The position numbers were made by a program, and so were the translations under genes. Positions 38,691-43,333 of a DNA stretch of 45,217 nucleotides are shown here, piece after piece. The stretch spans positions 1-45,217 of the forward strand of contig NZ_RQYT01000022.1 in the NCBI RefSeq assembly GCF_003932785.1, written 5' to 3'. This DNA is from Arachnia propionica (lineage in GTDB: Bacteria; Actinomycetota; Actinomycetes; Propionibacteriales; Propionibacteriaceae). The first letter of the stretch is position 1. The number at the start of each line of letters is the position of its first letter. The notes under the pieces are model-generated. The model had not been told where the DNA came from and did no database searches. It saw only the letters and a program-made list of their open reading frames with translations.

Positions 38691-38727
38691 GTGGGGCCGT
38701 CTCTCCTCAGGGCTGGGACGGCCCCAC
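38691..38727 (+). terminator. Terminator hairpin after idh
   Basis: GTGGGGCCGTC (38691-38701) and GACGGCCCCAC (38717-38727) form an 11-bp stem, 18 bp after the stop. No U-tract is present. Confidence 0.8.
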
Positions 38728-38901: not shown

Positions 38902-39204
38902 ATGCACCATGCGATGCTCGTGGTCGCTTTCGTCGCCCTCGCACTCGTGTTCACCATGACCGAGCTCCACATCCGTCGGCGACTGCGGCAGTTCCGCCGG
39001 GTTCAGCTGTTCTGCTACAGCAGCTCCTACCTCGGCGCGATGGCCAACGCCTCGTGCCTGCTCCACGACCCCCCGGAGGCCTTCCGCCACTGGAGTGTCC
39101 TCCTCGGCGTCGCCTGCGTCGCCGTGCAGATCCTGCTCCTGATGAGGGGCTGGACCAGGTCCCGCCTGCCGATGCGGGCGCTTCCCGCGGAATCCACCCA
39201 ATGA
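38902..39204 (+). CDS. Small three-TM protein, first gene of glycan operon
   Basis: A 100-residue membrane protein with three hydrophobic segments at about 4-22, 37-54 and 66-81. Between the first two is the basic loop RRRLRQFRR (25-33), which should be cytoplasmic. Residues 18-53 align without gaps to residues 22-57 of the PIG-L protein two genes downstream, with 10 of 36 identical, including RR, F, S, AN and CL. It therefore looks like a free-standing version of that enzyme's membrane anchor. The start is set by AGAGGGGG upstream; an in-frame start at 38845 lies in the promoter. Its stop overlaps the next start (ATGA). Function is unknown. Confidence 0.8.
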   Translation: MHHAMLVVAFVALALVFTMTELHIRRRLRQFRRVQLFCYSSSYLGAMANASCLLHDPPEAFRHWSVLLGVACVAVQILLLMRGWTRSRLPMRALPAESTQ

Positions 39205-40502
39205 GCCCCCTCATGACGGCACTCGCCGTGGTGGCCCTGCCCGGCGTGCTGCTCGGATTCGTCCACTGGGTGTGGTACCCGTTCTCGGTCCTGTTCGAGT
39301 TCCGCCAGCACTCGCCGGGAGTGCTGTACCGGGGGGTGCGGGTCAGCGTCATCATCCCCGCCTACAACGAGGGGGTCGTGCTCCACGCATCCGTGGCCTC
39401 CGTCCTCGACAGCGGCTACTCCAACCTGCAGGTCATCGTCGTCAACGACGGCTCCACCGACAACACCTGGGAGATCATGCAGGCCTTCGCGGCCGACCCC
39501 CGGGTCGTGCTCATCAACAAACCCAACGGTGGCAAGGGGTCGGCCCTCAACGCGGGCATCGACGTCGCCGACGGTGAGGTGCTGCTGTTCGTCGACGCCG
39601 ACGGACTGTTCACGAAGACCACCATCCCCAGGCTCCTCGCCGGGTTCCGGCACCACAACGTCGGAGCCGTGTGCGGCAACGACCAGCCGATCAACGTCAC
39701 CGGTCCCCTGACCCGACTGCTGGCGCTCATGACCCACGTCGGCACCGGCCTCACCCGTCGCGCCCTCGCGTTGCTCGGGATCCTGCCGATCGTCTCCGGC
39801 AACTCGGGCGCCTTCCTCGCCCGGGTGGTGCGGGAGGTCGGCGGGTTCAGGACCGACACCCTCGGCGAGGATCTCGAACTGACATGGCGGGTCCAGTTCG
39901 CCGGGTACGACGTGGAGTTCGCCCCGCGGGCCCTCGTCCTCGCCGAGGTGCCCTCCACCCTGCGGGGCCTGTGGAAGCAGCGGGTCCGTTGGCAACGCGG
40001 CCTCATCCAGACCGCGCGCATCCACCGTCACCGCGCCCTGCGCCTGCCGCGCAGCCGGTTCGACTGGTACCTACCACTCAACCTGCTCTCCATGCTCATC
40101 GCCCCGGTGCTGCAGCTCATCGCCCTCGTCCTGTTCCTCGCCGTCCTCGCGACGGGGGAGCTCCGGATCGAGTCGTGGTGGGCGGCGGTGCTGCTGCTCG
40201 GCCTCGAGGTGACGCTCGGAGCGGCGGTGATCGCCCTGCTTCTCGACCGGGCATGGCACAACCTGCCCCTGCTCATCGTCCTTCCCCTGTGGCTCCCGTT
40301 GGGCCTGTTCCTCTCCGCCGCCACCGCACGCGCCATCTGGGCCGAGCTGCGGGGCACCGCGTCGACCTGGAACAAGCTGGAACGCACCGGCGTCCGCAAC
40401 CGGACCGCCAAGGAGGAGCCGCTCGATTTCGAGGTGGGCATCGAACCACCCCCACAGTCTGGAGTCAACGCCCCAACTCCGCCCCTCACCGTTGCTCGTT
40501 GA
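39201..40502 (+). CDS. Processive GT2 glycosyltransferase (PgaC/NodC/HAS-like)
   Basis: A 433-residue membrane synthase. One transmembrane helix (about 5-31) precedes the cytoplasmic GT-A domain: VSVIIPAYNEG (48-58), VVNDGSTDNTW (80-90), the DxD in FVDADG (Asp132, Asp134), the base in GEDLEL (Glu223, Asp224), and QRVRW (260-264). QxxRW marks a polymerising enzyme like those for chitin-type, poly-N-acetylglucosamine or hyaluronan chains. Three or four C-terminal helices (about 290-318, 326-349, 354-376) could form the exit channel. The next gene encodes a sugar N-deacetylase, which suggests an N-acetylhexosamine product. The product is inferred, not shown. Confidence 0.88.
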   Translation: MSPLMTALAVVALPGVLLGFVHWVWYPFSVLFEFRQHSPGVLYRGVRVSVIIPAYNEGVVLHASVASVLDSGYSNLQVIVVNDGSTDNTWEIMQAFAADPRVVLINKPNGGKGSALNAGIDVADGEVLLFVDADGLFTKTTIPRLLAGFRHHNVGAVCGNDQPINVTGPLTRLLALMTHVGTGLTRRALALLGILPIVSGNSGAFLARVVREVGGFRTDTLGEDLELTWRVQFAGYDVEFAPRALVLAEVPSTLRGLWKQRVRWQRGLIQTARIHRHRALRLPRSRFDWYLPLNLLSMLIAPVLQLIALVLFLAVLATGELRIESWWAAVLLLGLEVTLGAAVIALLLDRAWHNLPLLIVLPLWLPLGLFLSAATARAIWAELRGTASTWNKLERTGVRNRTAKEEPLDFEVGIEPPPQSGVNAPTPPLTVAR

Positions 40503-40514
40503 AAGGAACACATC

Positions 40515-41420
40515 GTGTCGGACCCACTGGTGCATCTCACCCTGATATCCCTGCACATCCTCGCCGTGTTCCTGTACACACTGGGAAGGGTCAACCTGGC
40601 CCGCCGGATCAGCCACTACCGGCTGCTGAGTCGCTTCGCCTGCATCAGCGCCGGGGTCATGATCCCGGCCAACCTCGCCTGCCTGTCCACCCCCAGCGGG
40701 ACCATCCACCCGTTGACACAGTCCTTCTCCATCGCCTCATTGCTGGCTCTCGCCGCCCTCACCTGGTACTTCCGGCACCCTTCCTGCAAACAGGACCCCT
40801 CGCGCGTCGTCCTGGCCATCGGCGCCCATCCCGACGACCTGGAGCTCGCCTGCTCCGGAACACTGGCCCGCCTGGTCGACCACGGCCACCGGGTCCACGC
40901 GCTGGTCATGACGCACGGAGCGATCGGCGGCGACCCGAGCATCAGGCCCGATGAGGCCCGCGACGGGGCACGTTTCCTCGGCCTGACCTCCTGCGACCTC
41001 CACGACCTGCCCGACACCCACCTCGCGGAGAGCAGCCACACCATGGTCTCCCTCATCGAGGCCGCCATCGCCCGGCACAACCCGCATCTCATTCTCACCC
41101 ACTCCGCGAACGACCAGCACCAGGACCACGTCGCGGTGCACTGGGCGACGCGGCGGGCCGCGCGGAACCATCCGGCGATCATCTGCTACGAGTCCCCGTC
41201 GGCGACCCCCGCCTTCTGCCCCCACGCCTATGTCGACGTCTCCGGGTACCTCGACACGAAACAGATGGCGGTGGAACTCCACAAGGACCAGTCCGCCAAG
41301 CCCTACATGGCGAACTCCGTCCTACAGGGGATGGCGACGTTCCGCGGCAGGCAGGGACGCATGGACGACGCGGAGGGCTTCGAGGTCATCCGGCTGCCGC
41401 TGTTCGGGGGCATCCTGTGA
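40515..41420 (+). CDS. Membrane-anchored PIG-L family de-N-acetylase
   Basis: A 301-residue protein. The N-terminal 87 residues hold three transmembrane segments (about 5-23, 41-58, 70-86), and the rest is a PIG-L/LmbE zinc deacetylase. Zinc ligands are AHPDD (104-108) and HQDH (202-205), and GTLARL follows as in the family. Positive charges in loop RVNLARRISHYR (25-36) and after the third helix (RHPSCK) place the enzyme domain in the cytoplasm. It should remove acetyl from an N-acetyl amino sugar. The start is GTG with GAAAGGA upstream. Its stop overlaps the ATP-grasp start (GTGA). Most PIG-L proteins lack this anchor. Confidence 0.87.
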   Translation: MSDPLVHLTLISLHILAVFLYTLGRVNLARRISHYRLLSRFACISAGVMIPANLACLSTPSGTIHPLTQSFSIASLLALAALTWYFRHPSCKQDPSRVVLAIGAHPDDLELACSGTLARLVDHGHRVHALVMTHGAIGGDPSIRPDEARDGARFLGLTSCDLHDLPDTHLAESSHTMVSLIEAAIARHNPHLILTHSANDQHQDHVAVHWATRRAARNHPAIICYESPSATPAFCPHAYVDVSGYLDTKQMAVELHKDQSAKPYMANSVLQGMATFRGRQGRMDDAEGFEVIRLPLFGGIL

Positions 41421-42268
41421 TCCGCGTCCTCGTCACCGGTGCCTGCGGACCCGCCGGACGGTCCCTGCTCGACCAGCTGTCCGCCCGCGGGGTGACCGCA
41501 GTCGGCTGCGACATGATGCCCGAGCCGCGGGCCGACGGCATCGAGGTCCTCGGTGTCCTGCCCGCCCGCGACCCCGGCTACCTCCAGGATCTGGACCAGC
41601 TGGTCCTCGCCCAGAACGCCACCCTCCTCATCCCCACCGTCCAGGAGGAACTCCCGATCGTCGCCGAGGACCCGCCGTTCCAGGCGCTGATCTCCTCGGA
41701 GGAGACGATACGGATCTGCGACGACAAGTGGCTCACCGGCCAGCACCTGGCAGCTGCCGGGGTTCCGGTGCCCGCCACCGTCCGCGCCGAGTCCGCACTG
41801 CCTGCCGACATCGCACCCCTCGGCCTACCCGTCCTCAGCAAGCCACGTGTCTCGCGCGGTGGCCGGGGCGTGGAACTCCACGACCAGCTCAACACGATCC
41901 CGAAGGAGCAAGGCGTGCTGCTGAGCGAGTTCGCGCCCGGCACCGAGTACTGCGTGCAGATGCTGCGGGGGCTCGGCCAGGACCTGTGCGTCGTGCTGGA
42001 GAAGACCGCGCTGCGGGAGGGACGTGTGGGCAATGCCGACGCGGTGCGTCGCGTCGAGGTGCCGGATGTGGCCGAGGTGGCGACGGCGGCCTGCGAGGCC
42101 TTGGGGATCCGTGGCCCGGCTGACCTCGACATCCGACGCCGCGATGACGGCACCCCGCTCGTCATCGAGGTCAACGCCCGGTTCGGGGCCCAGAGCGCCC
42201 ACGCCCCGGAGATCATCGACGCGGTGCTCGCCTGGCACGTCGCCCGCAGGGCAGCGGCCGAGGTGTGA
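41417..42268 (+). CDS. ATP-grasp family ligase, last gene of glycan operon
   Basis: A 283-residue ATP-grasp enzyme of the carbamoyl-phosphate-synthase-like, PylC-like branch. A Rossmann-like pre-domain starts with VLVTGACGPAGRSLL. Lys142 in LSKPRVSRGGRG should bind ATP. The metal-binding residues are in LVIEVNARFG (Glu251, Asn253). Such enzymes join a carboxylate to an amine through an acyl phosphate. The amine could be one exposed by the PIG-L enzyme, but that is inference. Start GTG 41417 overlaps the upstream stop. It converges on purM with a 24-bp gap. The length is on the short side for this branch. Confidence 0.82.
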   Translation: MIRVLVTGACGPAGRSLLDQLSARGVTAVGCDMMPEPRADGIEVLGVLPARDPGYLQDLDQLVLAQNATLLIPTVQEELPIVAEDPPFQALISSEETIRICDDKWLTGQHLAAAGVPVPATVRAESALPADIAPLGLPVLSKPRVSRGGRGVELHDQLNTIPKEQGVLLSEFAPGTEYCVQMLRGLGQDLCVVLEKTALREGRVGNADAVRRVEVPDVAEVATAACEALGIRGPADLDIRRRDDGTPLVIEVNARFGAQSAHAPEIIDAVLAWHVARRAAAEV

Positions 42269-42292: not shown

Positions 42293-43333
42293 CTAAACCA
42301 GTTCAGCCACGCCGTCGCCGTCGTGGTCCTCGATCCGGCCGAGGACCCAGGCGTCAATCCCCCGGTCGTTGAGGAGGGTCACGGCCCGGTCGACCTCGGT
42401 GTCGGGAAGCACCGCCACCATGCCGACCCCCATGTTGAGGGTGGCCTCGATGTCGGGCTGGGACACCTTCCCGACCTGCTGGACGAGCTGGAAGATGGCG
42501 GGCGGGGTCCAGGAGTCGCGGCGCAGCACGGCCCGTTTGCCCGCCGGGATGACGCGGGCCAGGTTGTTGGCGAGTCCGCCGCCCGTGATGTGGCTGAAGG
42601 CGTGGCACTCGACCTCACGGATGAGGGCGAGCACGTCGAGCGCGTAGACCCGCGTCGGGGTGAGCAGTTCTTCACCGAGAGTGCGGCCGAGCTCGTCGAC
42701 GTGGCGGTCCAACGACCAGCCCGCCTCCGTCAGCAGCACGTGCCGGACCAGCGAGTAACCGTTGGAGTGGAGGCCCGAGGAGGCCAGCGCCAGCACCACG
42801 TCCCCGGCGCGGATGCGGTCGGCGCCGAGGATGGCGTCCCGCTCCACGACCCCCGTCGTCGCACCCGCGATGTCGTACTCGTCCGGGCCGAGAAGACCGG
42901 GATGCTCCGCGGTCTCGCCACCGACGAGGGAGCACCCGGCCGCGACGCAGGCGTCGGCGATCCCGGAGACGATGGCCGCGATGCGTTCAGGCACCACCCT
43001 GCCGCAGGCGACGTAGTCGGTGACGAACAGCGGCTCGGCCCCGCAGACGACGAGGTCGTCGACGAGCATCCCGATGAGGTCGAAGCCGATGGTGTCGTGC
43101 TTGTCGAGGGCCTGGGCGATCGCCACCTTCGTGCCCACCCCGTCGGTGGAGGTGGCCAGCACCGGATGGCGGTAGTCCTTGAGGGCGGAGGCGTCGAAGA
43201 ACCCGGCGAAACCGCCGAGGCCACCCAGCACCTCGGGACGTCGGGTGCGGGCGACGGAGGCCTTCATGAGGTCGACGGCGCGGTCCCCCGCCTCGATGTC
43301 GACCCCGGCGCGGGCGTAGGCGGATGGGCTCAT
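42293..43333 (-). CDS. purM: Phosphoribosylformylglycinamidine cyclo-ligase
   Basis: A 346-residue AIR synthetase, normal length. It converts formylglycinamidine ribonucleotide to aminoimidazole ribonucleotide in purine synthesis. The start YARAGVDIEAGDRAVDLMK, the ATP-site KDYRHPVLATSTDGVGTK split near 50-70, and VVCGAEPLFVTDYVACG, LVGGETAEHPG and FSHITGGGLANNL are all present. It overlaps the purF stop by 4 nt and is translated from the same message. Confidence 0.97.
   Translation of the reverse strand: MSPSAYARAGVDIEAGDRAVDLMKASVARTRRPEVLGGLGGFAGFFDASALKDYRHPVLATSTDGVGTKVAIAQALDKHDTIGFDLIGMLVDDLVVCGAEPLFVTDYVACGRVVPERIAAIVSGIADACVAAGCSLVGGETAEHPGLLGPDEYDIAGATTGVVERDAILGADRIRAGDVVLALASSGLHSNGYSLVRHVLLTEAGWSLDRHVDELGRTLGEELLTPTRVYALDVLALIREVECHAFSHITGGGLANNLARVIPAGKRAVLRRDSWTPPAIFQLVQQVGKVSQPDIEATLNMGVGMVAVLPDTEVDRAVTLLNDRGIDAWVLGRIEDHDGDGVAELV

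Follow-up and report, generated by a model that had tools for sequence, protein, structure and literature searches.

Linkage of a glycosyltransferase, a PIG-L deacetylase and an ATP-grasp enzyme in Arachnia propionica and relatives, and a possible role in modifying an amino-sugar polymer

What would bring a polysaccharide synthase, a PIG-L-type de-N-acetylase and an ATP-grasp ligase together in one tightly packed group of genes? In the current study, we addressed this question for four plus-strand genes at positions 38902-42268 of an Arachnia propionica contig (NZ_RQYT01000022.1, of which the 45,217 nucleotides analyzed are termed the window). They encode a small membrane protein (gene 1), a family 2 glycosyltransferase (GT2), the PIG-L protein and the ATP-grasp protein. 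Gene 1 and the GT2 gene overlap by 4 nt, a 12-bp gap precedes the PIG-L gene, and the PIG-L and ATP-grasp genes again overlap by 4 nt; the reading frames bear out these spacings and the coordinates given in an earlier note on this DNA. That note had proposed a single pathway for a modified amino-sugar glycan, a claim that holds for the linkage of the genes, whereas the sugar, the deacetylation and the ligation to an amine are still read from protein families and motifs. We show here that GT2, PIG-L and ATP-grasp form a real unit. Our preferred reading of its function, held at slightly better than even confidence, is production and export of a modified amino-sugar polymer by a synthase-dependent system akin to the Pga/Ica systems of poly-N-acetylglucosamine but with intracellular deacetylation and ATP-dependent ligation.

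The linkage of the trio was evident from searches with each protein. When 116 genomes, including the window's own, were searched separately with the three enzymes, the same eight genomes were selected by ATP-grasp at E<1e-100 (next match, 1e-79) and by GT2 at E<1e-150 (next match, 2e-84). PIG-L at E<1e-30 also picks these eight, here without a gap, since the next genome (G024, at 1.5e-30) follows directly and carries sister-clade versions of all three enzyme genes. A PIG-L scan of named genomes gave 80 loci, for which partners were counted within 5 kb. Beside the 40 long PIG-Ls (at least 290 aa), an ATP-grasp gene was found in 34, a GT2 gene in 32 and both in 30, vs. 2, 3 and 0 of the 39 short ones; the long set includes one protein whose extra length is seemingly C-terminal (L096), and the short set three loci with a cut or failed gene call (L063, L069, and L111). 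One locus with a broken PIG-L was counted apart from both sets; there, in Asanoa siamensis (L049, 9790-11797), PIG-L, ATP-grasp and GT2 matches lie in broken or overlapping frames, perhaps as a decaying copy of the cassette or through an assembly error. In the reverse direction, ATP-grasp gave strong matches in family f3 (12 of 294 genomes) and in the class (11 of 394). These 23 matches comprise the window, three repeats, a locus already counted (L039, in genome G115) and 18 new loci, 17 of which carry PIG-L and GT2; at the last (L170), near a contig end, neither occurs within 9 kb. Adjacency of the trio thus recurs in Actinomycetota and Pseudomonadota, whether PIG-L or ATP-grasp serves as the query, and the expectation that the enzyme genes would be neighbors in related genomes is confirmed. 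Gene starts in the relatives come from a simple gene caller, and the same loci supplied the profiles used for labeling. Pairwise distances of the three proteins are correlated (Mantel r of 0.79, 0.83, and 0.92 over 21 loci, and 0.62-0.87 over the 11 loci of the window clade), as could also result from shared descent alone. A phylum-wide search at E 1e-50 returned one of 396 genomes, the window's own, a result that means rarity rather than absence because only about six candidates were scored per genome.

The GT2 protein belongs to PF00535 (120.9 bits vs. a cut-off of 23.3). Its D, DxD, ED, and QxxRW motifs and flanking transmembrane (TM) segments are those of processive QxxRW synthases, and it probably is one, in line with the original assignment. 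The QRxRW, DAD, and ED motifs are invariant in the 21 rows of the family alignment; in the GT2 tree, rows were trimmed at 480 residues and L066 was left out. One hydrophobic segment is N-terminal and three are C-terminal; a fifth (residues 180-198) lies inside the glycosyltransferase domain. The closest NCBIfam model is PgaC_IcaA, at 178.7 bits vs. a cut-off of 422.3, and the glycolipid-type model HpnI also matches weakly (24.5 bits).

PIG-L matches PF02585 (87.2 bits vs. a cut-off of 28.2), and its AHPDD (residues 104-108) and HxDH (HQDH, 202-205) motifs are kept in all 28 alignment rows. It lies under the cut-offs of four equivalog models, BshB1, BshB2, MshB, and Mca, the closest being the bacillithiol deacetylase BshB1 (82.8 bits vs. 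182.5). A hydrophobicity scan gave three N-terminal segments, and by eye there is an Arg in the first loop and Arg/Lys past the third segment, so that by the positive-inside rule the catalytic domain would face the cytoplasm. Segments and charge pattern therefore agree with the view of PIG-L as a tethered enzyme acting on the cytoplasmic side. In a sister clade, a phospho-receiver domain replaces the membrane anchor: PF00072 (Response_reg) matches 14 of the 28 rows, whereas the window protein matches PF02585 only. Such fusions, in effect response regulators with a de-N-acetylase as output, occur in records of Actinomycetota, Pseudomonadota, and Myxococcota (e.g., L066, L075, L108, and L155). 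The TM-type PIG-Ls form one clade in the tree (support 100/98), in which the Collimonas row sits on a long branch flagged by the tree program. In G115, ATP-grasp and GT2 are window-type in the trees and PIG-L is receiver-type, and eleven genomes of the same family resemble it by profile score, without placement in a tree. This combination suggests that the two kinds of PIG-L are interchangeable parts of one system, or seem so by sequence. The window genome also has a second, short PIG-L elsewhere (L126, 6375-7013, contig C98), adjoining what by eye is a WbqC-like protein.

The ligase candidate matches ATP-grasp_3 (PF02655, 58.9 bits vs. a cut-off of 23.2), and its ATP/Mg residues K104, K142, E251, and N253 are invariant in 25 of 25 alignment rows. 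The closest NCBIfam model is PRK12767, "carbamoyl phosphate synthase-like" (87 bits vs. 218); with all nearest scores under cut-off, GT2, PIG-L, and ATP-grasp fall in no named equivalog. Acyl-phosphate chemistry is what the family would predict. Foldseek neighbors of the modeled protein include an L-amino acid ligase, PylC, and LysX, and also PurK and biotin carboxylase, and by sequence its profile is closest to 2pn1 and next to carbamoyl phosphate synthase; the latter relationships make carboxylation or carbamoylation possible. The earlier suggestion that an acyl or aminoacyl group is joined to an amine is thus supported insofar as amine ligases are among the fold neighbors, and the ligation itself would be an extrapolation from them. 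A further relative occurs in a stretch of Sinorhizobium medicae pMl3 (L128, 4583-10928), where genes for a PHP protein and an ATP-grasp, kin of the sister-clade pair, directly follow the sulfate-activation genes cysD-nodQ-cysQ; labeling of that stretch showed neither a PIG-L nor a GT2 of this family.

Gene 1 gave no Pfam family above cut-off, and its matches to known small membrane proteins (PspM/Rv2743c, CopD, and PMP1) are all far under cut-off. Since the hydrophobicity scan reports two segments and a weaker middle one is visible by eye only, a 3-TM protein is likely rather than certain. In a phmmer search against a small set of PIG-L N-termini, gene 1 proved homologous to the PIG-L membrane domain, with best matches to G029 and G017 (E 1.6e-10 and 1.1e-8); membrane segments may raise such scores, and the match also covers the charged loop between segments. 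By this homology, gene 1 duplicates the PIG-L membrane domain as a protein of its own, and the presumed fourth component is the anchor of the deacetylase in detached form: it was rightly called a membrane protein, but it is not a separate kind of component. It is also present in G010, G034, and G006 (56, 56, and 39% identity to the window copy). The ratio of nonsynonymous to synonymous substitution rates between the window and two congeners is 0.13-0.14 for GT2, 0.12-0.16 for PIG-L, 0.26-0.29 for ATP-grasp and 0.46-0.56 for gene 1, the highest of the four yet still below 1.

The order of the genes is less conserved than their company. Gene 1-GT2-PIG-L-ATP-grasp occurs in the window, in G010 and G034, where the operon lies between the same neighbor genes, and in G006, where it is split over two contigs. 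Nine other TM-type loci (L036, L037, L038, and L042-L047), from congeners, Trueperella, Isoptericola, two Arthrobacter, one unclassified host and Collimonas, have PIG-L-ATP-grasp-GT2, and order is more variable in the sister clade. Conservation of the window's order, which had been anticipated, is therefore rejected beyond the window and these three congeners. It is possible that the permuted order arose from a tandem duplication of PIG-L-ATP-grasp-GT2 after which a deletion left the first PIG-L with nothing but its membrane domain.

Additional partners occur in some relatives, among them histidine kinases, a secreted PgaB-hydrolase-like enzyme with a predicted TIM barrel, and, in Gram-negatives, outer-membrane-type TPR proteins (14 of 40 long-PIG-L loci). 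The hydrolase accompanies the same genes in all 11 further f3 loci. By E-value, Foldseek places a beta-amylase complex (8j5d) and Cwp19 ahead of PgaB, which appears from rank 4 with higher TM-scores; a search of PDB sequences with the hydrolase profile gave one match, at chance level. The catalytic residue of PgaB is D474 (PMC5933820, available text). In Collimonas (L047, 11698-14079), the hydrolase domain is fused C-terminally to GT2, after what by eye is an extra segment of RR plus hydrophobic residues. The statement that no hydrolase or export gene is present is thus accurate for the window but not for those relatives that have the hydrolase or the TPR proteins.

According to the preferred reading, the PgaC/IcaA-like GT2 would build an N-acetylhexosamine chain at the inner face of the membrane, and PIG-L, anchored on that side by its three TM segments, would strip N-acetyl groups in the cytoplasm, the side being suggested by the charge pattern and the reaction by the intact motifs. 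ATP-grasp may then couple the freed amine to a carboxylate, possibly that of an amino acid, which is the weakest step, and gene 1 is perhaps an adaptor that keeps the enzymes at the synthase. Where relatives have the secreted hydrolase, trimming of the chain is its probable role, and in the sister clade a histidine kinase probably switches PIG-L through its receiver domain. Receiver domains on metabolic enzymes are already known in general (PMC5847659, available text). A more tentative extension, which we consider rather doubtful, is that receiver-PIG-L acts as a response-regulator deacetylase, so that a kinase signal would set the charge and acylation of the cell coat without new transcription, with ATP-grasp capping amines before export; in the window lineage, an anchor would have taken the receiver's place and then been copied as an adaptor.

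The system resembles Pga/Ica in combining a QxxRW GT2 with a de-N-acetylase and, in some relatives, in the PgaB-hydrolase-like TIM barrel and outer-membrane-type TPR proteins. The Pga/Ica deacetylase, however, is an extracytoplasmic enzyme of carbohydrate esterase family 4 (CE4), whereas here a cytoplasmic PIG-L would serve and an ATP-grasp is added. No CE4 deacetylase (PgaB/IcaB) was found by Pfam among the four operon proteins, the rest of the genome not having been searched for one; because of this and the GT2 score under the PgaC cut-off, we do not file the operon as Pga/Ica. We know of no Pga/Ica system with cytoplasmic PIG-L de-N-acetylation or with ATP-dependent capping of amines. Another likeness is to yaiS-yaiP-yaiX-yaiO of E. 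coli, in which a PIG-L deacetylase adjoins a GT2, both in the K-12 chromosome and in a copy carried by an IncF plasmid, with an acyl- or acetyltransferase and the outer-membrane protein YaiO in place of ATP-grasp; the plasmid match is confined to PIG-L residues 92-294 and leaves out the membrane domain, and neither acyltransferase nor YaiO is among the four window proteins by Pfam. Alternative routes to capping such an amine are therefore suggested. On the plasmid (pEC012-3; L131, 5980-10210), the genes run PIG-L, GT2, acetyltransferase, and YaiO, followed by an AraC regulator, and in the K-12 counterpart (L173, 4070-8617) the acyltransferase gene yaiX is split by IS2. The PIG-L domain and motifs are shared with BshB1, BshB2, MshB, and Mca, from which the PIG-Ls of this system differ by their N-terminal TM or receiver domain and their glycan-synthase partner. 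ATP-grasp likewise shares its fold and nucleotide/metal residues with carbamoyl phosphate synthase (CPSase)-like enzymes (2pn1, PylC, and L-amino acid ligases), but reaches no NCBIfam cut-off.

Several observations weigh against the preferred reading. Besides the distance of GT2 from PgaC, 10 of the 40 long PIG-Ls have an incomplete set of partners in their stretch, and four have neither (L056, L092, L095, and L096); three misses are found at the end of a contig or on a short one (L055, L057, and L076). No PgaB-like hydrolase was found in a search of the window genome, matches at E 0.05-0.22 in four other genomes being at chance level, nor beside the trio in G029, G017, L043, and L044, so that the hydrolase argument comes from part of the relatives only. 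Three genomes (G025, G026, and G039) have no PIG-L and GT2 beside their ATP-grasp, which belongs to this clade; one partnerless copy (L121), next to a histidine kinase, retains its main catalytic residues, and the distant relative in Sinorhizobium (31% identical) sits among genes for sulfate activation and a PHP protein. Finally, the unanchored PIG-L of the sister clade, with its receiver domain, would suit a soluble substrate. The last point favors an explanation that we judge unlikely yet weightier than the other rivals, namely that an activated sugar or other small cytosolic precursor is deacetylated and ligated and then polymerized by GT2. Known PIG-L/LmbE enzymes act mostly on small conjugates, according to a review (PMC4101496), BshB1 is the nearest NCBIfam model, and 23 of the 40 long-PIG-L loci have a PHP or histidine-phosphatase-like protein no more than 5 kb away. 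On the other hand, PIG-L is tethered in the window clade, and a second copy of its membrane domain adjoins the synthase gene. It is improbable, in our estimation, that the product is a short glycolipid, with GT2 placing a single sugar or a few on a lipid, PIG-L freeing the amine and ATP-grasp capping it: PIG-L itself acts on the glycolipid GlcNAc-PI (PMC4101496) and HpnI weakly matches GT2, but PgaC is the best model, and the hydrolase and TPR proteins also speak against it.

Equally slim is the chance that ATP-grasp serves another function, for example the synthesis of a small amide signal for the neighboring histidine kinase, and is tied to the glycan genes by shared regulation. The lone ATP-grasps of G025 and G026 speak for it, lying beside a histidine kinase and regulator that resemble those after GT2 in G017 and G029, as does the Sinorhizobium relative. 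However, the ATP-grasps found by the window-type profile at E<1e-90 come with both partners among the relatives (8 of 8, the G006 set lying on two contigs) and the f3 genomes (12 of 12). Moreover, the G025 copy has lost K104, K142, E177, and E251, and the G039 copy K104, K142, and E251 (Asp there), and with these catalytic residues gone both look like relics; the G026 copy retains K104, K142, E177, and E251 and may be active alone. A fortuitous or loose grouping of the four genes, sharing no pathway, would account for the patchy distribution (8 of 116 relatives and the single genome of the phylum-wide search, with its few candidates per genome), but it is very hard to reconcile with adjacency repeated in two phyla, and we regard it as highly improbable.

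In the literature searched, which left most subscription papers outside, we found no description of the trio or of a receiver-PIG-L fusion. The main text of a 2020 survey of synthase-dependent operons contains neither "PIG-L" nor "ATP-grasp"; it reports that a hydrolase domain accompanies the pga operons of Gram-negatives, Kitasatospora being among the dual-domain exceptions (PMC7112194). "Response regulator" and "polysaccharide" are absent from the main text of the LmbE review (PMC4101496), as are "operon" and "ATP-grasp" from the available text of a 2025 study tying a C. difficile pig-L gene to biofilm (PMC12613277). For another cluster, in Clostridium, a gene neighborhood that includes an "ATP-grasp amino acyl ligase" was proposed to serve a modified polysaccharide (PMC4000134, available text). 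If the preferred reading is correct, the trio would represent an amino-sugar exopolysaccharide pathway with two added steps, spanning Actinomycetota and Pseudomonadota, an example of a receiver-domain enzyme that edits a surface polymer, and a source of cationic or acylated matrix material with a dedicated hydrolase.

Features of the operon and its surroundings are collected in Table 1. The gene upstream encodes a monomeric isocitrate dehydrogenase (IDH; PF03971), and the hairpin in the interval, for which 2 of 200 shuffles fold equally well or better, perhaps marks the end of the IDH transcript. A scan for sigma-70-type promoters at the operon found none, which leaves the idea of a single promoter driving the four genes unsupported, and no T-tailed terminator was found. 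The purM label of the convergent gene is that of the earlier note, no family search having been made. The genus of the window also includes Propionibacteriaceae bacterium P6A17.

Table 1. Positions of the operon genes, their domains and nearby features in the window.
Feature	Position	Strand	Remarks
Gene 1	38902..39204	+	100-aa membrane protein
GT2 synthase, PgaC/IcaA-like	39201..40502	+	433 aa
QRVRW motif of GT2, residues 260-264	39978..39992	+	
PIG-L gene	40515-41420	+	301 aa, GTG start
PIG-L N-terminal three-TM domain (predicted), residues 1-98	40515..40808	+	
PIG-L de-N-acetylase catalytic domain	40809..41420	+	PF02585 over residues 100-215
ATP-grasp ligase (putative), CPSase-like (PF02655)	41417..42268	+	283 aa, GTG start
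GC-rich hairpin between IDH gene and operon	38691..38727	+	z -2.35; no T run
Convergent gene (labeled purM)	42293-43333	-	24 bp past the ATP-grasp gene

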